In this document: piece by piece, positions 1 through 12,114 of the stretch
Numbering within the stretch: position 1 is the stretch's first letter
Layout of the letters: each line of letters opens with the position of its first letter
Origin: an uncultured Tateyamaria sp.
GTDB lineage: Bacteria; Pseudomonadota; Alphaproteobacteria; Rhodobacterales; Rhodobacteraceae
Reading direction: 5' to 3'
Assembly: GCF_947494755.1 (NCBI RefSeq)
Contig: NZ_CANLVZ010000006.1
Span: 62,001-126,000, forward strand
DNA length: 64,000 nucleotides
Program-made: the position numbers and the translations under genes
Notes under the pieces: model-generated
Seen by the model: only the letters and a program-made list of their open reading frames with translations
The model's database searches: none
What the model was told of the DNA's origin: nothing

Positions 1-407
1 GCAACTAAGAGTGTAGATACCGCGACCACGCCGCCGAGAGCCATCGCCACATAGGCCATCGCTTGCGACGCCGCCACGAACCCGACCGCAGTTTTTACAA
101 GAACTGTGATGGCAGTGCGATTGTCTTCAACGATCTCTTGAACGTTTACCTCTGGGTCATGGATGATATCTTTTGAGCTTTGCAGAAGCTGGATCGCTCT
201 GGCAGAAGTCAGCAGTTTGAGCCTATTGGTAGAATAAATTCGGGCGACGATCCCGAAGATAGCGATTCCTAGGCCAAGACCACACAACACTAGCACCATT
301 GATTGAAGTCCATCCCTGGCAGTGGGCGTCTCAACTACAAAAACAGCACCAACGCCGAGCATCATCCCTATGGTTACAAATACTAAAGCCGTAACTGTAG
401 TCCGCAT
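1..407 (-). CDS. Hypothetical membrane protein, C-terminus cut by window edge
   Basis: A minus-strand frame opens with ATG at 407-405 and stays open to base 1, so only the first 135 or so residues are visible. Residues 4-24 and 37-55 are hydrophobic and read as two membrane helices. A more polar segment follows (about 56-95, containing SSKDIIHDPEVNVQEIVEDN), and a third hydrophobic segment begins near residue 100. This suggests a small inner-membrane protein with a cytoplasmic loop. I do not recognise the family. Codon use is less GC-rich than in the core genes beyond 12 kb, which fits a gene of the integrated element. Confidence 0.55.
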   Translation of the reverse strand, partial: MRTTVTALVFVTIGMMLGVGAVFVVETPTARDGLQSMVLVLCGLGLGIAIFGIVARIYSTNRLKLLTSARAIQLLQSSKDIIHDPEVNVQEIVEDNRTAITVLVKTAVGFVAASQAMAYVAMALGGVVAVSTLLV

Positions 408-969
408 GATCAAATGGCCCTCGTCTGAAATTACCTAGAATACAATAATGAGCTTCGAAATTTAAGGCCATCGAAGATGATTGGTGGCGCGTAACTTTTG
501 CAGCCGACATCCTATGCGTCCATGCCTGTGGATGAATCTCATGTTTGTATTCGTGAGCCCAAAAACCGTACTTACGCCTGTTGGTGGTTGACCTACCTGT
601 GGCTACTATTGATGGACGAAAGTCAGATCACGTTACTCGGCGCTGCTGTGCCGTGGTCAAAGGATACCCGGCGATTACTTTGCTGCGCGCGCAGCACAAA
701 AATATAATGGCTGGGTTGGGCTCTTAGTTGACCTCGGAGGCGGTGCAGCATCCATGCGACAACCGACCCAAGCCACCTTCAGTCTCGGCCCAAACCGGAA
801 TTTGACCGTGGTGTCGAACGCTGCAGCGCGGCTTCTCCAAAGCGGACATAAGCGCACTGGGGCCGCATTGGACCGGTTCAAGGCCTGTGCCTTTATATTC
901 CGACTATGTCATCGACAAAAAGGAACCGCGGCAGAGGCCACACAAAATCTGCCAGCACTATGACTTTAA
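408..969. other. 562-base stretch without a convincing gene
   Basis: Only short frames occur here on either strand. None has a clear ribosome binding site or recognisable protein character. The stretch lies between the starts of the truncated membrane gene and the 3' end of the helicase gene, so it should hold the promoter of the former. It contains a 16-base perfect palindrome at 681-696. It may hold decayed gene remnants, but none could be identified. Confidence 0.5.
681..696. repeat. 16-bp perfect palindrome
   Basis: TGCTGCGC is followed directly by its reverse complement GCGCAGCA, giving an uninterrupted dyad. No T-run follows on either strand, so it is not an intrinsic terminator. It could be an operator, or a chance GC-rich palindrome, inside the gene-free stretch downstream of the helicase. 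Confidence 0.4.
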
Positions 970-3438
970 TTAGCGACATTCACGGGTGAAATGCTCTAGT
1001 ACCATCTCAGCATTGAGGTCGTTTTCCGCCAAGAGCGCCGCAATACGTTCTACGCTGCGTATCGCGCTTTCGTCGCTCGCCAACGCACGAATAAATGCCG
1101 CCATTGCTTTTTTGAGTGCCTTGAGGTCCTTTGGCGTCATGACGCGTGTACCCTGAGGGACAGAGGCAGTCGGACCGGCCTTGGCGTGAGGGTGAATAAT
1201 CACCGGTACCGCTTCGACTGCGCCGTACTGACCACTGAACCAGGTCATCGACTGTTGGAGTTGGCCTAGATCTTTCTTGGAAATGCCATCCTGAGATGTC
1301 ACGCCGTTCTTACACTCTATGACAGCAAACATGTCTCCGTGAAGGTGCCAAAGGTTGTCCGGACCTTCGCCAAAGCGCTTCTCGGGTCTTTGGCATGATA
1401 ATCCTATAAGACGGCCAGCATCGTCTATGGCTTGCTCAAATGGTTCTGAGGTGTCCGGGCGAAACTGAAGGTCTTCCGCGAGCGCATCAACGAAACGAAC
1501 GCGGTCATAAGCCTCCAACATTCTCCCTAGATAGGCCTGTGATGCCTCAGCTTGCCGGATCTCTCGGCGGCGCAAGGCATCGTAGTCAACACCTACGAGA
1601 GGTCTGAGAACCTGCATGTTGTGCTTTCTAGCTTTCACGAGACGGGCCTGCGCAGCAGTTGGATCAAAACTTTGCCTATGAAAAGCCTCACGGACGAGGA
1701 GCCAGGCCTTCAGGCCAGGGTCAGTTGCCTTCTTTGACTCTTCCTCCAAGATGTCCGCAGCGCGTTGATCTCCGTCCAACCATGCCGAGTCAAAGGCACG
1801 CCGCAGATTGACTGAGGTGTCGTCAAGCCTGAGCGCCTTGTCAGGCCTAATGCTGGCGCGGGCCTTACGACTACCGGTAGTCCAAATCTTTTCTTGATCG
1901 AGACATAACATCATCGTCTCATGCAGGTCATCAATCGAACCACCCTGAGACTGTGCTGCCATCCTCTGCGCGATATCGATCTGTTTTCGTGTCGCGTTAG
2001 AAAGAAGTAGCTTGCCTTCGACGGACAGAAGGCGCTCAGTTAACCTTGCCCCAAGCAGGAGGACTACGCAATGGTCGTCGACCGATCGAACCCCACGGCC
2101 CATCCCTTGTTCGATCCGTTCAATCTGGCGACGCAGGCCAACTGTGCCGTTTCCAAGGATAACGTTATCTACGCGTTCAATTAGTGAATTTGCCTCCGGC
2201 AGGCCATCGATAACAAGTACCCGGCAAGCGTCGTGAGGAAGATCGACTCCATCGTACCGGTTTACGAGAACTACGAGGCCAACATGCCCCGCCCGAAGGC
2301 GCGCAACGCCAGGCGATACTTGATCTCCCATCAATACTTCGGTTGCTATCCCTCTCCAGTCGTCCGCCGCGCGCTTCGATGGCACAATAACAACGCAATT
2401 CTTGTCCTGAGCGAGATCGACGATTAGCTGCTTTATTTCCTCGCGTTTGATGTCGCGATTGATTTCCTTCGGAAGCAGAATCATCCGGTCTCCCATCGCA
2501 TTCGCGACGTCGGGGGTCACTGGATCTGCAAGAGTTTCCGGATCTGCGCCGAAATGCGTCACGAAAACCGAGTCATCTGCAAGCGTCGCACTCATGTAAA
2601 TTCGGCGCTTTGCCGCTTCAAAGGACGGGATCATTGAAGGAATAGGAAAGAGAGGATCAATCTCAATCTCCTTGCCTCCTATTACGATGCGACAGAGATG
2701 AAGGTGGTCGGCAAGAAATGGATAGTTGAATGCCAACTCATCAGTCTCTTCGTGCTCCGTTAGGATGTGAAGGAGCTCGTCTGCTTTTTCTCTTACATCC
2801 CAGAAAGGGACCTCCAAATAGTCATGCGGATCGCCGGCCTTGATTGACAGAGCGGCTGAAGCGCTCTGCCTTCCTAGGGCTGTCTCGAACAATTCACCAG
2901 TCTCTCCGTATGCTGGATGGTCCGATTTCAGTCGAATTCGAAACTGGTTCGCGACCGTCGCAAGGCACGCATGAGCATCGTCTATGATGATTGCACCAAT
3001 TTTGAGTTTTACACCTCTCCTACCAACGCCAAATATTGATTTTCCGTTGAAGAGCTTGAAGATGTTGGTCACATAAATCGCGGAGCCCGCGCGAACGCGG
3101 GGGTCATTCGCATTATCTGTCGCTTCGATGCCAAGCGCTTCAGCTTCAGCTAAAACCTGTTCGGTAAGGTATTTGTCCGGTGTGAGATAAACTGCCGGAT
3201 GTACGTCTTCGTTGATACAGCTCTGAAGTATGAGAAGACCAGACGTCGTCTTCCCGCCGCCAGTATCGAGCTTGATGACTGTGTCACGTTGGTCTCGGCC
3301 GCGATACCAACCGTCAAGAATATCGGCCTGTACGTCCCTAAGAAATTCGAAGCGTGGCGTCTTGTCGAGGAGACCGAATATTTCGCGGGGGTTTGTCGGC
3401 TGTTCGCTGCTGTCGCCGAAAATATCATCCCAATCCAT
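970..3438 (-). CDS. SF2 DEAD/DEAH-type helicase with C-terminal PD-(D/E)xK-like domain
   Basis: A large (822-residue) superfamily 2 helicase. Walker A reads LDTGGGKTTSG (about 57-66), the Walker B box is DDAH (153-156), motif III is SAT (283-285), and motif VI is QGMGRGVR (444-451). After a long helical middle region, the C-terminus has a GPDNLW segment (692-697) followed by IECKN (707-711) and a downstream QLQQ. That spacing resembles the PD-(D/E)xK fold of restriction-type nucleases. The ATG is supported by AGGAG about 10 bases upstream. The gene is divergent from the DUF488 pair across 390 bases. A helicase-nuclease in an element with H-NS and ArdA suggests DNA processing or defence, which is inference. 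The helicase call is firm; the nuclease call is moderate. Confidence 0.8.
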   Translation of the reverse strand: MDWDDIFGDSSEQPTNPREIFGLLDKTPRFEFLRDVQADILDGWYRGRDQRDTVIKLDTGGGKTTSGLLILQSCINEDVHPAVYLTPDKYLTEQVLAEAEALGIEATDNANDPRVRAGSAIYVTNIFKLFNGKSIFGVGRRGVKLKIGAIIIDDAHACLATVANQFRIRLKSDHPAYGETGELFETALGRQSASAALSIKAGDPHDYLEVPFWDVREKADELLHILTEHEETDELAFNYPFLADHLHLCRIVIGGKEIEIDPLFPIPSMIPSFEAAKRRIYMSATLADDSVFVTHFGADPETLADPVTPDVANAMGDRMILLPKEINRDIKREEIKQLIVDLAQDKNCVVIVPSKRAADDWRGIATEVLMGDQVSPGVARLRAGHVGLVVLVNRYDGVDLPHDACRVLVIDGLPEANSLIERVDNVILGNGTVGLRRQIERIEQGMGRGVRSVDDHCVVLLLGARLTERLLSVEGKLLLSNATRKQIDIAQRMAAQSQGGSIDDLHETMMLCLDQEKIWTTGSRKARASIRPDKALRLDDTSVNLRRAFDSAWLDGDQRAADILEEESKKATDPGLKAWLLVREAFHRQSFDPTAAQARLVKARKHNMQVLRPLVGVDYDALRRREIRQAEASQAYLGRMLEAYDRVRFVDALAEDLQFRPDTSEPFEQAIDDAGRLIGLSCQRPEKRFGEGPDNLWHLHGDMFAVIECKNGVTSQDGISKKDLGQLQQSMTWFSGQYGAVEAVPVIIHPHAKAGPTASVPQGTRVMTPKDLKALKKAMAAFIRALASDESAIRSVERIAALLAENDLNAEMVLEHFTRECR

Positions 3439-3828
3439 AGTGCAGGTCTCCTATACAAAATAGAAACCGTATGGTGGACCCGACTTTGTGGCGCAACCCT
3501 GAATTGATATAGAATTCGCGCATAGCGAGCACCAGAATGCTTGGCGCTGCCCGCATACACTGAGCAGCATCGGTTATTGTGGGCTCAATGCGGCCATCAG
3601 GGTAAGCGCAGAACCTGCCTTGACGAGGACCCGTTGCCTGCCACTGGCGGCCCAAAGCTGCCCATAGTGACCCTGATCAGCAATCCTTCTTGGATCCGTT
3701 GATGTAATACTGACACGAGTCTGGCAACATCTGGCCCATGTCGTAACGGCGTTGTCGCCTTTGTCGTACTTTGGGTACTACAAATCGCGCAACAAAAAAT
3801 GAGATTTAAGCAGTTAGGAGAGAAAATC
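3439..3828. other. Divergent intergenic region between helicase and DUF488 unit
   Basis: This 390-base region separates two divergently transcribed units and must hold both promoters. Frames through it lack gene character. The visible signals are an AGGAG ribosome binding site for the helicase gene, an inverted repeat at 3761-3783, and TAGGAGAG just upstream of the DUF488 start. Confidence 0.5.
3761..3783. promoter_or_regulatory. Inverted repeat upstream of DUF488 gene, candidate operator
   Basis: TTGTCGTAC (3761-3769) and GTACTACAA (3775-3783) are inverted with one mismatch around a five-base spacer. The repeat lies 45 bases before the ATG at 3829, in the divergent intergenic region. It could be a regulator-binding site or a short 5' hairpin. 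Confidence 0.35.
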
Positions 3829-4320
3829 ATGTTTGACCAAGCGGGCGATAGCGTCAAAGCGCGGCTTATGACTATCGGATACGAGGGGGCAGAAATTGCC
3901 GACTTTATCGCGACGCTCCAAGCTTCCAACGTGACAACCTTAGTTGACATACGTGAACTACCTCTTTCTCGAAAAAAAGGCTTTTCAAAGAACAAGCTAC
4001 GCGAACAGCTTGAAGCGTCAGGTATCACCTATATGCACGTAAAACAGTTAGGCGACCCAAAGTCCGGTCGCTTGGCAGCACGTGCGGGCAACATGAGTGA
4101 GTTTCGCCGTATTTTTGGTGACCATATCAAGTTGGACGCAACCCGCGAGGCTCTCCGAGAAGTTGTGCCCGTAATAGAGGCGGGCGGCGCGTGTCTTTTG
4201 TGCTTCGAGCGTTGTCATTCCGATTGCCACCGGTCTATCGTTGCAGACGAGTTGGCAAAGCTGGCCGATTTTGAGCTGGCACATATCGGAGTAAAGCAAG
4301 GCATTGCAAAACAGCACTGA
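3829..4320 (+). CDS. DUF488 family protein
   Basis: A 163-residue protein with the hallmarks of DUF488: the N-terminal MTIGYEG motif, LVDIRELP, and near the C-terminus a cysteine-rich signature LLCFERCHSDCHR. An in-frame ATG exists at 3799, but 3829 is preferred because TAGGAGAG sits about seven bases upstream. The biochemical function of the family is unknown; the Cys/His cluster suggests metal binding or catalysis. The stop overlaps the next gene by 17 bases, so the two are probably co-translated. Base composition is lower in GC than the core genes, consistent with acquisition on the mobile element. Confidence 0.8.
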   Translation: MFDQAGDSVKARLMTIGYEGAEIADFIATLQASNVTTLVDIRELPLSRKKGFSKNKLREQLEASGITYMHVKQLGDPKSGRLAARAGNMSEFRRIFGDHIKLDATREALREVVPVIEAGGACLLCFERCHSDCHRSIVADELAKLADFELAHIGVKQGIAKQH

Positions 4321-5080
4321 CGCTAAATCAGGTACCGCAGAAACCATTGTACTTATCAAAGCGGCCCCTGTTATCGGGCAGAAACACGGCGAGACCGTAT
4401 GTTGCGCCGGGATAGATATATACGGCCATTGGCACCGTATGTATCCGGTTTCCTTCCGTCTCTTAGAGGACGCTAAACGCTTTGGCCGATGGGATATTGT
4501 TACCTACAATTGGCGAAGGCCCACTGATGACGACCGCGTTGAAAGCCGTCACGTTGATAGCCAAACGCTCGAAATCTCTGGCTGCATGAAGAAAACCGAG
4601 CGGGCCAACTTCTTAGACAACCATATCGTTACGAGCCTCAAAGCTGAAAATGAGGCGGGCCGTTCGCTTGCATTGCTTCGCCCAACGATCAAAGAATTTG
4701 TGATTGTCGCGAAGTCACGGAGCGAAGTTGCTACCGAACAACGCAAGATCGACAATTATCACGCTCAAACCGATATGTTTGCGCCGCCGCCAGGCGTACC
4801 CCGCGTAGCGTGCCCATACGAATTTAAATACAAATACCGCACCGATGACGGTGACCGCACCGGGACGTGCCAAGATTGGGAAACCGAGGCCACATTTTAC
4901 AAATGGCGCAATGAGTATGGGGAGCAAGGTGCAATAACTCATATGCAGGAGGCGTACGGGCACACGTTGCCTGAGCGTGGCTTGTATTTCGCCATGGGTA
5001 CGCACTCACTCCACCGTGATACGTGGCTGATCAATGGCCTTCTACAGCTTAGGGCCACAAAGCAACCGTCGCTATTTTAG
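4304..5080 (+). CDS. Unrecognised 258-residue partner of DUF488 protein
   Basis: The frame begins with TTG inside the end of the DUF488 gene and runs for 258 residues. No ATG lies before the first well-ordered segment (TIVLIKAAPVIGQKHGETVCCAGI), so a TTG start is plausible. Ordered features include IDIYGHWHRMYPV, a central CPYEFKYKYR and GTCQDWE pair of Cys segments (about 165-190), and a C-terminal segment AMGTHSLHRDTWLINGLLQL. There is no signal peptide or membrane helix. I do not recognise the family. The overlap argues for a stoichiometric partner of the DUF488 protein. The helicase-nuclease is the divergent neighbour. Confidence 0.65.
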   Translation: MQNSTDAKSGTAETIVLIKAAPVIGQKHGETVCCAGIDIYGHWHRMYPVSFRLLEDAKRFGRWDIVTYNWRRPTDDDRVESRHVDSQTLEISGCMKKTERANFLDNHIVTSLKAENEAGRSLALLRPTIKEFVIVAKSRSEVATEQRKIDNYHAQTDMFAPPPGVPRVACPYEFKYKYRTDDGDRTGTCQDWETEATFYKWRNEYGEQGAITHMQEAYGHTLPERGLYFAMGTHSLHRDTWLINGLLQLRATKQPSLF

Positions 5081-5197: not shown

Positions 5198-5620
5198 TCA
5201 CCGACAGTAACTAGACTGCGGCAGTCTGCGACTATCCTTGATTTCGAACCTCTGATACTTGCCGCGCGAGTATCGCGGACAGTCACGTGCGAGGCCGTGT
5301 GCAATTGCCAAGGCCCCGATGTCTTCACCGGAAGGTAGATAGCACGTTCCAACCCATCGGTCATAGGTCCTTACGCCTGTCATGCTGCACGTGACCGGCT
5401 TTCGCAACACAAGATTTCTGAGCCATTTTTGACCCGCTCGGCCAACAGGCGTCTGGAGTTCGGGGCCGTCGATGCCATTAAAGCGAACGGCAAGGCCATT
5501 GACCTCGATGGTGTCGATATCGCGCACATGGGTCACGCGCCCTTCAATCCACTCTTCAGCCGGAAGGGCTGTCGATAGCGCGATGAAAAGTACGGCGGCG
5601 AGACCTGTCACATAGCGCAT
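5198..5620 (-). CDS. Secreted thermonuclease (SNase)-like protein
   Basis: A 140-residue protein with an N-terminal signal peptide (MRYVTGLAAVLFIALSTALP) and a staphylococcal-nuclease-like OB fold. GRVTHVRDIDTIEV opens the domain. VRFNGIDGPEL carries the Arg and Glu equivalent to the catalytic Arg35/Glu43 pair, and RTYDRWVGTC the third catalytic Arg. Several cysteines in the C-terminal half suggest disulfides, fitting export. The ATG shares bases with the upstream stop (TGATG), so the start at 5620 and translational coupling are well supported. It probably degrades nucleic acid in the periplasm or outside. It converges on the 258-residue gene. Confidence 0.8.
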   Translation of the reverse strand: MRYVTGLAAVLFIALSTALPAEEWIEGRVTHVRDIDTIEVNGLAVRFNGIDGPELQTPVGRAGQKWLRNLVLRKPVTCSMTGVRTYDRWVGTCYLPSGEDIGALAIAHGLARDCPRYSRGKYQRFEIKDSRRLPQSSYCR

Positions 5621-6042
5621 CAACAGGCGATCCTTTGGTCCGAGCATCGCTCATACAAAATAGCCTGAGTGGCGAGGATGACGTGGACGACGTGCATGGG
5701 ATCTCTGGTTATAGCTGCCAATCCATCATCTATCGCGGCCTCCATCATCAAGGCTGTTCTCCGGTTGGTTGACGCATGCTCGAACTCATCCAATTCATCG
5801 GCCTCTGCAAGCTGTGCCACCCAGAGAGCGGCACACTCCTTTGAAAGCCTAACGGGCAACACGCCTGCGGCCAATGCAAATTCGAGAACGTCATAGATCG
5901 TGGAATAACTCAGGGCGGCGATGGGCCGATGCGTGCAATGTAGCGACCTTTGCAATAAGCCTCGACGCCAAAGCAGATCGAGCTGTACCGGAGCAACCTG
6001 CAGGAAGGCCGCGATCTCGTCTCGGCTGAGAGGAATGTGCAT
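5620..6042 (-). CDS. Hypothetical 140-residue protein coupled to the nuclease gene
   Basis: This frame has an N-terminal segment (LSRDEIAAFLQVAPVQLDLL) that reads like a helix-turn-helix, then a second helical region and an acidic patch (LAEADELDEFEH). There is no signal peptide or membrane helix. Its TGA overlaps the ATG of the SNase-like gene, making a two-gene unit. A DNA-binding or regulatory role is possible, but I do not recognise the family. Confidence 0.55.
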   Translation of the reverse strand: MHIPLSRDEIAAFLQVAPVQLDLLWRRGLLQRSLHCTHRPIAALSYSTIYDVLEFALAAGVLPVRLSKECAALWVAQLAEADELDEFEHASTNRRTALMMEAAIDDGLAAITRDPMHVVHVILATQAILYERCSDQRIAC

Positions 6043-6503: not shown

Positions 6504-6821
6504 TCACGTAACGATCAGCAGATCTTCCAGTGCCTTGCCGCTGGCCAATGCGTCTTTGATCCACTTCGGCTGGCGGCCTTTCCCCGTCCACGTCTTCGCA
6601 GGGTTTTCCGGGTGGCAGTATTTGGGGGCCGACTTTGTGCCCTTTGTCTTTGCGCCGCCCGTCAGTTCGCTCAGGGAAAAGCCCATTTCGGCTGCTTTTG
6701 CCTCCACAACGGCCAGTGCTTCTTTGCGTTTGCGCGCCTCATAGCTGTTGACGGCCTTTGTGGCGGCTTTCTGAATGTCTTTCAGCTCGTCCAGTGAAAG
6801 CGTGTCCCAATTGATATCCAT
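6504..6821 (-). CDS. H-NS family nucleoid-associated protein
   Basis: A 105-residue protein with the two-part H-NS layout. An N-terminal helical oligomerisation region (about 5-55, rich in Lys/Glu/Ala) is followed by a flexible TKGTKSAP linker and the C-terminal DNA-binding motif, here HPENPAKTWTGKGRQPKW (about 70-87). The ATG at 6821 is chosen over one at 6830, because AAAGGG directly abuts the earlier codon but lies at proper distance from the later one. H-NS proteins coat AT-rich and horizontally acquired DNA and silence it. An island-borne copy could silence the element or modulate host H-NS. Confidence 0.9.
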   Translation of the reverse strand: MDINWDTLSLDELKDIQKAATKAVNSYEARKRKEALAVVEAKAAEMGFSLSELTGGAKTKGTKSAPKYCHPENPAKTWTGKGRQPKWIKDALASGKALEDLLIVT

Positions 6822-6982
6822 GTCATGCATCCCTTTATGTTTTGTGATCGGCTACGTGAATAGACGTGCCGGTGCAATAGTTTGGCCGCACCTTGCGTTT
6901 TATTCATCCATGACGTGCAGTTTATCGCCTGTCACGGGGTAAACCTGTTCTAAATCATAGGTTTATTGATGCGATTGCGCGT

Positions 6983-7430: not shown

Positions 7431-7521
7431 TTGGGCGCATCCCTTCGGGCCAGGCTCGCGTGAACCACGCCCAAGGGCGGTCGTGGCCCTGCGGGCTTTG
7501 ATCCTTTGCGTATCATTTGTC

Positions 7522-7715
7522 GGGGAGGCCGAGAGGCTTTGCCTCTTCTCTCCCCACAAGAAAAACAGATCGCAGAGAAGCTTGCTTTGACGGTTTCCGG
7601 CAGGCCGGACCCTCCGCCAAAGACAGAGCTTCTTTCGCCGATTTTTCTTGTCCCCTCCCATCTCCACTCTCGGCGAGAGCCAAGGGTTGCAGGCGCAACC
7701 CCTCCCCAAGGGAGG
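7522..7715 (+). promoter_or_regulatory. Hairpin-rich leader upstream of ardA
   Basis: The gene-free 360 bases before ardA are packed with inverted repeats. These are GGGGAG/CTCCCC (7522-7527, 7550-7555) enclosing AGAGGC/GCCTCT (7532-7546), an AGAAGCT/AGCTTCT stem (7576-7582, 7627-7633) enclosing TTTGACGG/CCGCCAAA and a CCGGC/GCCGG core, then CTCTC/GAGAG (7667-7679), GGGTTGC/GCAACCC (7684-7701) and CCTCCC/GGGAGG (7701-7715). The last stem ends eight bases before the AAGGA ribosome binding site. Possible roles are an antitermination or RNA-level control, or a single-strand promoter used during conjugative transfer as described for ardA leading regions. Confidence 0.5.
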
Positions 7716-7735
7716 AAAAAGAGAAGGACAAGACC

Positions 7736-8242
7736 ATGACCATTCAATTGCACGCACAGCCCTATGATTTGGCTGCAACAGGGTTCTATTTTGAAGACTA
7801 TGACGACTACGCCCAGAAGGCCACCAAGCTGCGGAATGACTACGGTGATCCGGTCGAAGAGTTCGAGATTCAGTTCATTGATGGTGAGCACATTGATTGC
7901 GATCTGGCGCAGGCCATCGGGATCAATCAGGCCAATCTCAAGCAGTTCCTTGAAGCGGTTGAGGAGTGGGACGAGCACGACAAGACCCGTGTGATCCTCT
8001 CGGTGGGGGAGTGTGGCTATCGCTTTGATGCCAAAACCCAGCCCAGCGACTTTGAAGTCGATATCTACCACGTCGATACCATGCGCGACCTTGCTGAGCA
8101 GTTTGTCGATGAAGGGCTGTTTGGCGACATTCCCGAGCCTCTGCAATTCTACATCGATTATGACGCCATCGCGCGGGATTTGGCTGTCGATTATGCCACC
8201 GCCGAAGTGGCAGGCAATCATCTGATTTATCGCTGCGCATGA
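7736..8242 (+). CDS. ardA: Antirestriction protein ArdA
   Basis: A 168-residue, strongly acidic protein typical of ArdA, a DNA mimic that blocks type I restriction enzymes. The acidic character is plain in FYFEDYDDYAQKATKL near residue 20 and VEEFEIQFIDGE near 40, and the middle has FLEAVEEWDEHD. It ends in the conserved-looking FIDYDAIARDL-type helix (YIDYDAIARDLAVDY). The start at 7736 is set by AAGGA seven bases upstream. ArdA protects incoming mobile DNA in a new host, fitting the ParB-like and recombinase neighbours. Expression is probably governed by the structured leader. Confidence 0.9.
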   Translation: MTIQLHAQPYDLAATGFYFEDYDDYAQKATKLRNDYGDPVEEFEIQFIDGEHIDCDLAQAIGINQANLKQFLEAVEEWDEHDKTRVILSVGECGYRFDAKTQPSDFEVDIYHVDTMRDLAEQFVDEGLFGDIPEPLQFYIDYDAIARDLAVDYATAEVAGNHLIYRCA

Positions 8243-8331: not shown

Positions 8332-10077
8332 ATGACTTTGCAACATATCAACATTGAAAACCTTTCCGTGTCCCCTTTGAACGTGCGCAAATACGGCGCA
8401 AAGGATTGCGCCGATCTGGTGACCAGCATCCGCAGCCTTGGCGTGCTGCAACCGCTTTTGGTGCGCGAGACAGCGGACGGCTTTGAAGTCATCGCAGGCC
8501 AACGCCGTTTTAACGCCTGTCGCATCATTGCGGAAGATGGCGACACCGATCCGCTGCCGTGCCTTGTGATGGCAGAGGGCGACGATGCGACGGCGATTGA
8601 GGCCTCACTCGCAGAAAACATCGAGCGCCTGCCCATGGATGAGGTGGATCAGTATAAGGCCTTTGCCACGCTGATCAAAGAGGGGCGGGAGCCTGCCGAC
8701 ATTGCCGCCACCTTCGGTATCACCGAACGGACGGTGTCGCAGCGCTTGGCCTTGGGGCGGCTCTACGCCCCGATCCTGACCGCCTATCGCAAGGGGGATA
8801 TTCACGCCCGCGACATCCGCATCCTGACCATGGCAACGACAAAGCAACAAAAGGCATGGTGGGCATTGGTCAAAGACGAGGAAGCCTATGTTCCGACAGG
8901 GCAGCGGCTCAAGGATTGGCTCTTTGGCGGGGCGCATATCCCCGTTGCCAACGCGCAGTTTGATGTCGAAGCCTCTGGTCTTGCCGTGGTGTCCGACCTG
9001 TTTGGCGAAGACGCCTATTTTGCGGATGCCGAGGCATTCTGGATCAAGCAGGAAGAAGCCATCCAGATGATTGCCACAGGTTATGAGGTTCTGGGCTGGG
9101 CGGAAACCGTTGTCATGGAACGCGGCGCGTATTTTGCCACATGGGATCATCAAAAGACGACCATGAAGGACGGAGGACGGGTATTCATCACCGTGAGCCA
9201 ACAGGGTGAGGTGACCGAACACGAAGGCTACATCACCCGTGCTGAGGCCAAGCGCCGCGAGAAAGCGGACACGAATGTCGAACCCGCGCCCAAACCTGAA
9301 CTCACCAAAGCAGCCCAAAACTATGTCGATCTACACCGTCATGCCGCTGTGCGCTCCGATCTGTTGAGCCAAAGCGGTATCGCCCTGCGTTTGATCGCGG
9401 CACACATGATCGCGGGATCATCCCTCTGGCAGGTGGAATCCGATCCGCAAAAAACGGCAAAGCCCGAGATTGAAGACAGCCTTGCCCGCAATGTAGGCCA
9501 TCGGCGGATGGTGGCCCAACGCGCCGACATCAAGGCTTTGCTAGGTATGGACGACGACACAGCACTCATGGACACCGCCAATGCATGGTCACCACGCCCC
9601 TGCATCACAGAGGTTTTTGCGACACTGCAAAGCCTGTCTGACGACGCCGTCACGCGCATCCTGACCTTCCTAATGGCAGACGGCCTGTCCGTCCACAGCC
9701 CGCTGATCGACAAACTTGGCGAGGCGATGGAAGCAGACATGCGCAACCACTGGTCACCCGAACCCCTGTTCTTCGATCTGGTACGCGACAAGCAAGTGTT
9801 GAATGCGATGGTGCGGGAATATGCGGGTGAAACAGCGGCGGATCAAAACCTGACCGCCACCGCCAAAACCCAACGCGCAATCCTGACCGCCTGTCTGGAC
9901 GGAACCCGCGCACCAGAACGGGAAGACTGGATGCCATACTATATGGCGTTTCCAAGCGGGTCGTATCGGTATGAGGTCAAAGCCGTCGACAAGAGCGGTG
10001 AAGAGCCGAACGCAGCAGAGGACATTTCGGACACGGAAATCGATCTCTCCGAAGTCGAACAGGCCAAAGCCGCGTAA
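8332..10077 (+). CDS. Large ParB/RepB/Spo0J-domain protein without ParA
   Basis: A 581-residue protein. The N-terminal ParB/Sulfiredoxin fold has LSVSPLNVRKYG (about 10-21), IRSLGVLQPLLVR, the GQRRF nucleotide-binding box (about 57-61) and ENIERLPMDEVDQYKAF (about 96-112). A helix-turn-helix follows (DIAATFGITERTVSQRLALG, about 123-142). The remaining 430 residues are element-specific and end in an acidic tail. The GGAGA upstream supports the start. ParB proteins act as CTP-dependent clamps in partitioning, but no parA lies nearby. Similar stand-alone proteins in mobile elements may regulate transcription or protect the element. It ends before a strong terminator. Confidence 0.85.
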   Translation: MTLQHINIENLSVSPLNVRKYGAKDCADLVTSIRSLGVLQPLLVRETADGFEVIAGQRRFNACRIIAEDGDTDPLPCLVMAEGDDATAIEASLAENIERLPMDEVDQYKAFATLIKEGREPADIAATFGITERTVSQRLALGRLYAPILTAYRKGDIHARDIRILTMATTKQQKAWWALVKDEEAYVPTGQRLKDWLFGGAHIPVANAQFDVEASGLAVVSDLFGEDAYFADAEAFWIKQEEAIQMIATGYEVLGWAETVVMERGAYFATWDHQKTTMKDGGRVFITVSQQGEVTEHEGYITRAEAKRREKADTNVEPAPKPELTKAAQNYVDLHRHAAVRSDLLSQSGIALRLIAAHMIAGSSLWQVESDPQKTAKPEIEDSLARNVGHRRMVAQRADIKALLGMDDDTALMDTANAWSPRPCITEVFATLQSLSDDAVTRILTFLMADGLSVHSPLIDKLGEAMEADMRNHWSPEPLFFDLVRDKQVLNAMVREYAGETAADQNLTATAKTQRAILTACLDGTRAPEREDWMPYYMAFPSGSYRYEVKAVDKSGEEPNAAEDISDTEIDLSEVEQAKAA

Positions 10078-10306: not shown

Positions 10307-10522
10307 ATGTCCCCCGATCTCGACAAATACCGCCGCATCGGTGCAGCGGAAAGCGAGCACGGGCTAAGCGACGATGCCTTACTTGCCCTTTGGGCGTTTT
10401 TAGAAGCCGTCGCAGCCCGTACCGAAGATTATCCACCGATTTCCCCATCCAGCCCCACTACCAAACGCGACGCCACAGCCGCAAATGGGCTATACTCAGA
10501 CCGACAGGAGGCCAGCCCATGA
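10307..10522 (+). CDS. Small protein translationally coupled to the recombinase
   Basis: A 71-residue soluble protein starting MSPDLDKYRRIGAAE with a helical middle (LSDDALLALWAFLEAVAAR) and a low-complexity tail. The frame stays open upstream to 10154, but ATG 10307 is preferred because the upstream part crosses the hairpin cluster. Its TGA overlaps the recombinase ATG (ATGA at 10519-10522), so the two are coupled. It might be a recombination directionality factor or a regulator, given size and position; this is inference only. Confidence 0.55.
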   Translation: MSPDLDKYRRIGAAESEHGLSDDALLALWAFLEAVAARTEDYPPISPSSPTTKRDATAANGLYSDRQEASP

Positions 10523-12114
10523 CCACAGCCGTGATATACGCCCGCGTGTCTTCCAAAGCGCAGCTCAAAAAAGGCGACGGCCTTGCCAGCCAAGAATCCC
10601 GTTGCCGTGATTTTGCAACCTACAGAGGCTATGATGTCGTCCGCGTGTTCTTTGAGCGCGGCGTGACAGGCCGCATCGACGACCGTCCGGCCATGCGTGA
10701 GATGCTGATGTGGCTGCGCAAGCACCGCAAAGACAGCCCTGTTGTTATCATCGACGACATCTCGCGCCTTGCCCGCAATCTCGAAGCACATATCAAGCTA
10801 CGCGCCACCATCGGCGCGGTCGGCGCTCAATTGGAAAGCCCGTCTATTGAGTTTGGCGATGACAGCGACAGCCGCCTGATCGAGAACATGCTCGCCAGCG
10901 TGTCCCAACATCACAGCCAGAAAAACGCCGAACAGGTGCGCCACCGGATGACGGCGCGCCTCAAGGCGGGGTACTTCTGCTTCTGGGCACCGACGGGCTA
11001 CACCTATGTAAAAGGTCAGGGCGGCGGCAAAGTGTTGGAGCGTGTTGAGCCCACTGCAAGCCTTTTGCAAGAAGCGTTGGAAGGCTTTGCCTCGGGCCGC
11101 TTTGAATCGCAGGCGGACGTGGCGCGGTTCCTCGCACCGCACCCGATCTTTGCCCGAGATGCCAAGGGTAACATCCACCCACAGCGCATCAAGAACCTAC
11201 TCACCAACAAGATTTACGCGGGCTACTATGCCTACAAGCCATGGGGCATCGGCCTGACGAAAGGCAAGCACGAGACGCTGATCTCGTGGGAGACGTTTCA
11301 ACGCATCCAAGCCCGTATAAATGATCGTACAACTGCGCCGCAAAAGACCGTCAGCACCGACGACTTTCCACTGCGCGGCTATGTCGCCTGCGACGGTTGC
11401 GGGCATCCCATGACAGGCTATTGGGCAAAAGGGCGCAACAAGCGCTATCCTTATTACGAGTGTTTCCAGAAAGGCTGCGATCTACGCCGCAAGTCGATCA
11501 AACGCGCTGACATCGAAGACGCTTTTGAAAACCTCTTGCAGTCCCTCACCCCAAGTCGCGGCTTGATCGCTGTGGCTTCGGAAATGTTCAAAGATATTTG
11601 GGACGGGCGCATCACGCAGTGGCAAACACAGCGCAAAGCGCAAAAGACAGAACTGGTCCGCATCGAGTCGCAAATCAGCAAAACAGCGGATCGTTTGATC
11701 GACACAACAAGCACCGCCACAGAACGCGCCCTTGAGGCCAAAATCGACAAACTGGAAGCACAGCGGGTAAAAACTGCAGAAGACCTCGCATTTTCGAAAC
11801 CAAAACCCGAAGACTTCCAGCGGAAATTTCGAACCGCTCTCACGTTTCTCACAAACCCTTGGAAACTCTGGGAAACAGGCAAAAGCAGCGACCGACAAAC
11901 CGTCCTGAAACTGGTTTTCGACAGCCCCATCCCATATGCGCGAAATAGAGGGTTTCGAACCGCCAAAACTACCATACCGTTCAATACCTTAGACGATATC
12001 GATGGGGTAAGAAATAAAATGGCGGAGACTGTGGGATTCGAACCCACGGGACGCTCTCACGCCCAACGGTTTTCAAGACCGCCGCATTCGACCACTCTGC
12101 CAAATCTCCGTTGA
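10519..12114 (+). CDS. Large serine recombinase (site-specific integrase)
   Basis: A 531-residue large serine recombinase. The N-terminal resolvase domain starts VIYARVSSKAQ with the nucleophile at Ser11 and includes DRPAMREML and DDISRLAR. The recombinase domain follows (about 160-270, including LTNKIYAGYYAY). A zinc ribbon has CDGC near 290 and a second Cys pair near 315-320 (ECFQKGC). A coiled coil rich in Lys/Glu spans about 375-430. The start is set by GGAGG and the ATGA overlap. The last 32 residues are encoded antisense to the whole tRNA-Ser gene, so the C-terminus was probably created by integration. It catalyses integration, and possibly excision, of the element. Confidence 0.9.
   Translation: MTTAVIYARVSSKAQLKKGDGLASQESRCRDFATYRGYDVVRVFFERGVTGRIDDRPAMREMLMWLRKHRKDSPVVIIDDISRLARNLEAHIKLRATIGAVGAQLESPSIEFGDDSDSRLIENMLASVSQHHSQKNAEQVRHRMTARLKAGYFCFWAPTGYTYVKGQGGGKVLERVEPTASLLQEALEGFASGRFESQADVARFLAPHPIFARDAKGNIHPQRIKNLLTNKIYAGYYAYKPWGIGLTKGKHETLISWETFQRIQARINDRTTAPQKTVSTDDFPLRGYVACDGCGHPMTGYWAKGRNKRYPYYECFQKGCDLRRKSIKRADIEDAFENLLQSLTPSRGLIAVASEMFKDIWDGRITQWQTQRKAQKTELVRIESQISKTADRLIDTTSTATERALEAKIDKLEAQRVKTAEDLAFSKPKPEDFQRKFRTALTFLTNPWKLWETGKSSDRQTVLKLVFDSPIPYARNRGFRTAKTTIPFNTLDDIDGVRNKMAETVGFEPTGRSHAQRFSRPPHSTTLPNLR
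12020..12109 (-). tRNA. tRNA-Ser (anticodon UGA), element junction
   Basis: Read on the minus strand, the RNA starts GGAGATTTGG, has the D-arm AGAGTGGTCGAATG, and the anticodon stem-loop GGTCTTGAAAACC presenting UGA. A long variable arm is typical of tRNA-Ser, the T-arm has GTTCGAATC, and the 3' end is AGTCTCCGCCA. The acceptor stem pairs GGAGATT with AGTCTCC (one wobble), and CCA is encoded at 12022-12020. The recombinase gene on the other strand overlaps the full tRNA, so the tRNA is the right attachment site of the mobile element. Confidence 0.95.

Follow-up and report, generated by a model that had tools for sequence, protein, structure and literature searches.

The closest described relative of the genes treated here is Hna of Sinorhizobium meliloti, which the accessible text of its description presents as a protein of 845 amino acids (aa) joining two helicase domains to a PD-(D/E)xK domain (PMC13381803). 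According to the same text, Hna is a 3'-5' exonuclease on single-stranded DNA (ssDNA), restrained by ATP, stimulated by the phage single-stranded DNA-binding protein (SSB) and leading to abortive infection. Its structure as a monomer is available (PDB 10UJ; 9YKJ is also S. meliloti Hna), and residues R36, Q39, P712, D713, E727 and K729 were mutated (PMC13381803). Other putative defence genes are represented by the PDC-x systems of PADLOC, which the accessible part of a 2025 paper attributes to Payne et al. 2021 as unpublished candidates. Within the open-licence literature, supplements lying outside the search, we found no paper testing two of them, PDC-M19 and PDC-M45, or the DUF488 family in defence. 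Here, we analyse a stretch of 64,000 nucleotides (hereafter the window) from the genome of an uncultured Tateyamaria sp. (contig NZ_CANLVZ010000006.1, positions 62,001 to 126,000), in which a helicase-nuclease gene faces a DUF488 gene and its overlapping neighbour, encoding a protein of 258 aa. These genes are likely two independent anti-phage (or anti-mobile-element) cargoes, judged from sequence and neighbouring each other on a single mobile element: a relative of Hna on the one hand, and on the other the pair PDC-M19, whose 258-aa member is apparently a divergent protein of the dual-OB (DuOB) type.

The initial annotation had grouped the three genes into a single undescribed module with a defence flavour. 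The open reading frame (ORF) coordinates agree with the layout that it gave, and all three proteins do match PADLOC models; the single module and its novelty were not upheld, as detailed below. The genes are arranged as follows (L and G numbers below are our locus and genome identifiers):

970-3438, minus strand, Hna-family helicase-nuclease gene (822 aa, ATG start; ORF list, PADLOC PDC-S28, Pfam)
3439-3798, no strand, intergenic gap of 360 bases between the helicase and DUF488 genes (ORF coordinates)
3799-4320, plus strand, DUF488 gene (173 aa, ATG start; Pfam PF04343, PADLOC PDC-M19A)
4304-5080, plus strand, gene of the 258-aa protein (TTG start; PADLOC PDC-M19B)

The helicase and DUF488 genes are divergent and 360 bases apart, and both promoters are presumed to lie within this gap. 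The end of the DUF488 gene overlaps the start of the 258-aa gene by 17 bases (4304-4320). The TTG start of the latter is supported because the starting methionine of three relatives (P0006, P0009 and P0010) falls in the same alignment column as that of the window protein. A second in-frame ATG of the DUF488 gene occurs at 3829, with AGGAG at 3816-3820 ahead of it (seen by eye), so that a start yielding 163 aa is also possible.

The helicase-nuclease and its kinship with Hna

The 822-aa protein matched PADLOC PDC-S28 over nearly the whole model (E 3.6e-285; protein residues 2-820, model positions 3-826 of 831), no difference from this model being seen in it. Among solved structures, only 10UJ (E 8.7e-110; query residues 12-817 to chain residues 14-837) and two entries of the same sequence matched strongly, the next match being at 0.011. 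Pfam identified ResIII/DEAD and Helicase_C_2 domains. In the alignment with Hna, the window motif LRDVQ corresponds to LRPAQ, while GPDNLW (residues 692-697) and ECK (708-710), located in the nuclease domain C-terminal to the superfamily 2 (SF2) helicase domains, correspond to the same letters in Hna. The six residues mutated in Hna are thereby aligned to identical residues of the window protein. Each of them was present in 41/41 rows of an alignment built from the window protein and 40 relatives, and so was each of the G, K and T of the SF2 motif GKT and the D, D and H of DDAH. The Hna profile used below was derived from the window protein and 40 of 120 listed relatives (every third). This alignment to Hna bears out the SF2 helicase with a PD-(D/E)xK tail foreseen by the initial annotation. 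With the same domain order, and with nuclease and ATP-site residues conserved, the 822-aa protein is, on these sequence grounds, a full-length relative of Hna. Two PADLOC models scored it unequally (946 bits for PDLC04986 vs 398 for PDLC04987), and five further members of the family that were scanned split three to two between the former and the latter, which leaves the possibility of a subfamily sister to that of S. meliloti Hna.

The DUF488 pair and the DuOB family

The 173-aa protein matched DUF488 in Pfam (E 5e-29) and PDC-M19A in PADLOC (PDLC04505, E 1.2e-32). The 258-aa protein, previously noted as unrecognised, indeed matched no Pfam family in a scan of nine window proteins; PADLOC lists it as PDC-M19B (PDLC04508, E 2e-33). 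Since both proteins match and their genes are adjacent and overlapping, the pair is, as far as profile matches tell, the PADLOC two-gene candidate PDC-M19. Some PDC-M19A members differ by an N-terminal extension of ~150-170 residues (L150, L152) that the window protein lacks; in these DUF488 partners (L152:567-1478 and L150:2326-3237), the extension has no Pfam family above the cut-off.

At a cut-off of E 0.001, the 258-aa family comprised 842 relatives, with no precomputed Pfam domain among the 120 listed. We gathered 121 loci of this family, the best 80 of 195 confirmed loci on genome contigs and 41 on viral contigs. A DUF488 gene directly preceded the 258-aa gene in 76/80 genome loci and 39/40 viral loci, no 258-aa ORF being detected in the 41st viral locus. 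The exceptions were L018, L053, L074, L082 (gene at contig end) and L137 (DUF488 on the opposite strand). An ORF with the CHR motif likewise stood immediately upstream of the 258-aa gene in all 10 loci of an order-level genome sample, the window's own included. In a Pseudomonas plasmid copy, the DUF488 gene is convergent to the 258-aa gene, with overlapping tails. Across 41 rows, the DUF488 invariants were C135, E137, C143, H144 and R145, together with D50, R52, S57, R58, K88 and R91, residues that would give the protein the look of an active enzyme. Searched by sequence against solved structures, the 258-aa family and DUF488 gave only weak, implausible matches.

The kinship of the 258-aa protein was suggested by its family. 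Six of 75 diverse members matched Pfam DuOB (PF22557) at E 10 or better, the best at 4.1e-4, and hhalign aligned the 258-aa family with DuOB over 111 columns (probability 93.4%, P 2.6e-7), against 0.1% for the single control profile, DUF488. Structure models were obtained with a mean predicted local distance difference test score (pLDDT) of 88.3 for the 258-aa protein and 96.3 for DuOB. Both share one order of elements: six strands, helix, helix and two strands, followed by two strands, helix and two strands. Two helices are additional in the 258-aa model (one at 139-154 between the halves, the second within 192-224), as are two short strands in the DuOB model (131-133 and 198-202). From the profile match and from these models, compared by element order alone, the 258-aa protein appears to be a divergent DuOB protein, a kinship that may be new.

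DuOB itself exceeded the cut-off in three of the 292 genomes of the order sample, none of which carries the 258-aa family. In two of them, two DUF488 genes come after the DuOB gene; the third DuOB gene lies 132 bases from a contig end, and the 2,160 bases available there show no DUF488. DuOB with two DUF488 genes constitutes PADLOC PDC-M45 (all three genes were scanned in L183, DuOB alone in L184). PDC-M45 thus resembles the window pair in setting a dual-OB protein, with profile kinship and similar element order to the 258-aa protein, beside DUF488. It differs in that the DuOB gene comes first and is followed by two DUF488 genes, whereas the window has a single one, placed first, with no second DUF488 among the nine window proteins scanned. 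PDC-M19 and PDC-M45 may consequently represent one class, and the DuOB kinship of the 258-aa family would link these two PADLOC candidates, both so far unexplained.

Probable independence of the two cargoes and alternative explanations

The initial annotation had proposed that the co-occurrence of the three genes in other genomes be checked. This held for DUF488 with the 258-aa gene, in the proportions given above, and failed for the helicase with the pair. Searching ORFs of at least 60 aa with the Hna profile at E 1e-5, we found an Hna-like ORF in 0/121 loci of the 258-aa family within the stretch of DNA fetched per locus, the profile matches being confined to the window, to loci of its own genome and to loci fetched with Hna. 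More than 4 kb of upstream sequence, enough for the window's arrangement, was covered in 100 of the 121 loci (70/80 genome and 30/41 viral), and 9 kb on both sides in 44/80 genome and 13/41 viral loci. Comparison of nine window proteins with the same loci gave matches to the 258-aa protein in 120, to DUF488 in 117, to the serine recombinase in 8 and to the ParB-like protein in 2, and to the remaining five proteins in 0/121.

At the genome level, the 258-aa family occurred in 10 and a substantial Hna in 4 of the 292 genomes of the order sample, and in 12 and 6, respectively, of the 385 genomes of a class sample; in either sample, only the window's own genome carried both. For the order sample, six genomes matched Hna, of which G000, G039, G078 and G153 were counted and the weak partial matches of G040 and G046 were left out. 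For the class sample, 185/385 genomes matched PDC-S28, of which 6 were counted (most of the model covered, at least 330 bits) and 179 were not, the next best scoring 58 bits; among the six, the matched region of G340 is interrupted by a stop. The closest Hna of the order sample, in G039, was 77% identical over residues 345-822 and 76% over 1-348, and the stretches read around it contained no match to any of the eight further window proteins compared. The G039 gene is split over two contig ends (L193 and L194), which makes its neighbourhood readable in part. Plasmid records carried the 258-aa family in 23 cases and Hna relatives in 240, with no record holding both among the matches listed. A single one of 50,697 phage records, labelled Salmonella, held an Hna relative.

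A single system in which DUF488 and the dual-OB protein sense or mark DNA that the divergent helicase-nuclease then cuts would account for three PADLOC-matching proteins whose genes are divergent neighbours sharing a 360-base gap in this genome. Such a system should not lack its helicase in 121/121 of the loci fetched, nor a second genome with both parts among the 292 and 385 sampled (a test of low power). The 76-77% identical Hna of G039 stands, in the stretches read, apart from the other window proteins, and the accessible part of the published account states that hna alone restored resistance in S. meliloti. We therefore reject the three-gene module, mainly on the 0/121 neighbourhoods and more weakly on the absence of a shared genome besides the window's own, and regard it as very improbable. 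It was not undescribed either: the helicase is a relative of the already published anti-phage Hna, and PDC-M19, like PDC-M45, is already a listed candidate.

A more serious alternative, although still on the unlikely side, is that the pair is a phage module for lysogeny, DNA modification or counter-defence acquired by host elements, and not a host defence. It finds support in the 41 viral-contig loci, of which at least 22 carry a relative of neighbouring N6/N4 DNA methylases and at least 18 a relative of terminase, portal or capsid proteins. The corresponding counts on genome contigs were at least 11/80 for methylases and at least 6/80 for the structural markers, the latter speaking against a phage module. 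All these counts are lower bounds since the marker seeds were drawn from the same loci, and viral status is that given by the collection. A relative of the 258-aa protein also directly follows an annotated immunity repressor gene in a temperate Gordonia phage. The presence of the 258-aa family on plasmids (the 23 records above) and the position of the window pair beside Hna and ArdA argue the other way; moreover, genes directed against other phages are also carried by phages. In the phage concerned, Nymphadora (L190:4021-5825), the two genes overlap by one base, an arrangement that hints at a role near lysogeny control. The gene before the Nymphadora relative was considered as a DUF488 fusion and rejected, giving weak helix-turn-helix (HTH) matches only. 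Alternatively, the pair may be toxin-antitoxin-like or serve nucleotide metabolism, without a nucleic-acid target, which would suit two small genes that overlap and lie on mobile DNA. We consider this improbable, given that the OB kinship of the partner points to nucleic acid and that the same kinds of protein recur with two DUF488 genes, which would better fit a working pair.

Several observations nevertheless weigh against two independent cargoes, one of them containing a DuOB relative. Chance alone would predict 0.09 and 0.14 further shared genomes in the two samples, making co-occurrence a low-power test. The searches scored a limited number of candidates in each genome, at most two in the class search for Hna, so that an Hna may have been missed there. 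Hna and the pair adjoin and are divergent in the window, and their shared regulation here is possible. The nearest of the 80 genome loci, L018 (L018:9959-10774, 90% identity), lacks DUF488; its upstream DNA is different, similarity to the window beginning at the 258-aa gene itself. The Gordonia phage relative, 28% identical and found in seven phage records, lies behind an HTH protein gene and not behind DUF488. Because of these two cases, the pair is not obligatory. As for the DuOB kinship, the window protein itself gave no Pfam DuOB match, the hhalign match spans only residues 25-138 of 258, and one of the 75 members matched a YscD/CdsD-like Pfam domain at 1.4e-4, below the best E of DuOB. 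Finally, a paper mentioning PDC-S28 does not use the name Hna in the accessible portion of its main text, and the tentative equation of PDC-S28 with Hna is drawn from our alignment of the window protein.

Under the preferred reading of two independent cargoes, the Hna relative would, by homology with its S. meliloti counterpart, be held in check by ATP until phage SSB is supplied, and would then degrade DNA from ssDNA 3' ends and abort infection. The 258-aa dual-OB protein would probably bind nucleic acid, perhaps at its ends, and could deliver the DUF488 enzyme, with its invariant C-x-E...C-H-R site, to a phosphate or sugar there for processing. The scheme of a nucleic-acid-binding partner with an end-processing enzyme is proposed because the DUF488 invariants look enzymatic and OB folds usually bind nucleic acid. 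While the pairing and the kinship are supported by computation, we infer the substrate and the outcome of the pair. DUF488 has reportedly been placed by Burroughs and Aravind, in 2023, in the rhodanese-phosphatase superfamily (RapZ-C/DUF488/DUF4326 clade), some members of which are said to be predicted DNA-end processors in virus-host conflict. In the accessible part of a 2022 paper by related authors, it is DUF4326 and not DUF488 that is assigned to this superfamily.

In a broader and rather doubtful extension, PDC-M19 and PDC-M45 together would form one phage- and plasmid-borne conflict class, in which the dual-OB protein presents nucleic-acid ends and DUF488 alters them chemically, by neither plain cutting nor methylation; stacked here with Hna, it would have ends both altered and chewed back. 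If the pair does act on nucleic-acid ends, this would represent an uncommon chemistry in phage-host conflict. The candidate three-gene system is thus replaced by two testable statements, one on a new Hna relative and the other on a 258-aa family that is apparently DuOB kin.

The surrounding mobile element

Downstream of the pair, the window contains the following features:

5198-5647, minus strand, gene of an SNase-like protein, in neither module (Pfam)
5620-6042, minus strand, ORF of 140 aa, family not recognised, in neither module (ORF list)
6504-6830, minus strand, H-NS gene (Pfam)
7517-8242, plus strand, ArdA, inside an ORF (Pfam)
8332-10077, plus strand, ParB-like gene (Pfam)
10390-12114, plus strand, large serine recombinase, inside an ORF (Pfam)
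12020-12109, minus strand, tRNA-Ser (tRNA scan of the window)

The initial annotation had described the genes as cargo of a mobile element with lower guanine-cytosine (GC) content than the core, and both points were confirmed. The GC fraction was 0.505-0.545 in the five 1-kb steps of positions 1-5000 vs 0.570-0.671 in the 52 steps beyond 12000 (at least 0.600 in 40/52). H-NS, ArdA, ParB-like and serine recombinase genes succeed one another up to tRNA-Ser, the segment ending at the recombinase ORF and the tRNA gene. The recombinase ORF crosses the opposite-strand tRNA-Ser, and its last residues are encoded by antisense tRNA sequence. Comparing the tRNA-Ser stretch with its own genome for an attachment repeat did not locate the far end of the element; three further matches (72-78%) on other contigs were taken as other tRNA genes.

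The window is part of a contig of 264,756 bases, in a genome of 60 contigs. The 17 kb to its left hold a gene for a TraG/TraD-like coupling protein, another resolvase, a caspase-like gene and a pentapeptide-repeat gene, and the mobile region may therefore extend past the window. The TraG/TraD-like gene (L139:4023-5471) may point to a conjugative element or to the remnant of one. The caspase-like gene (L139:9441-10472, G000:C6:55441-56472; Peptidase_C14 E 3.8e-11, PADLOC caspase E 6.2e-9) may be a further conflict gene of this region; the ORF beside it matches ankyrin weakly.

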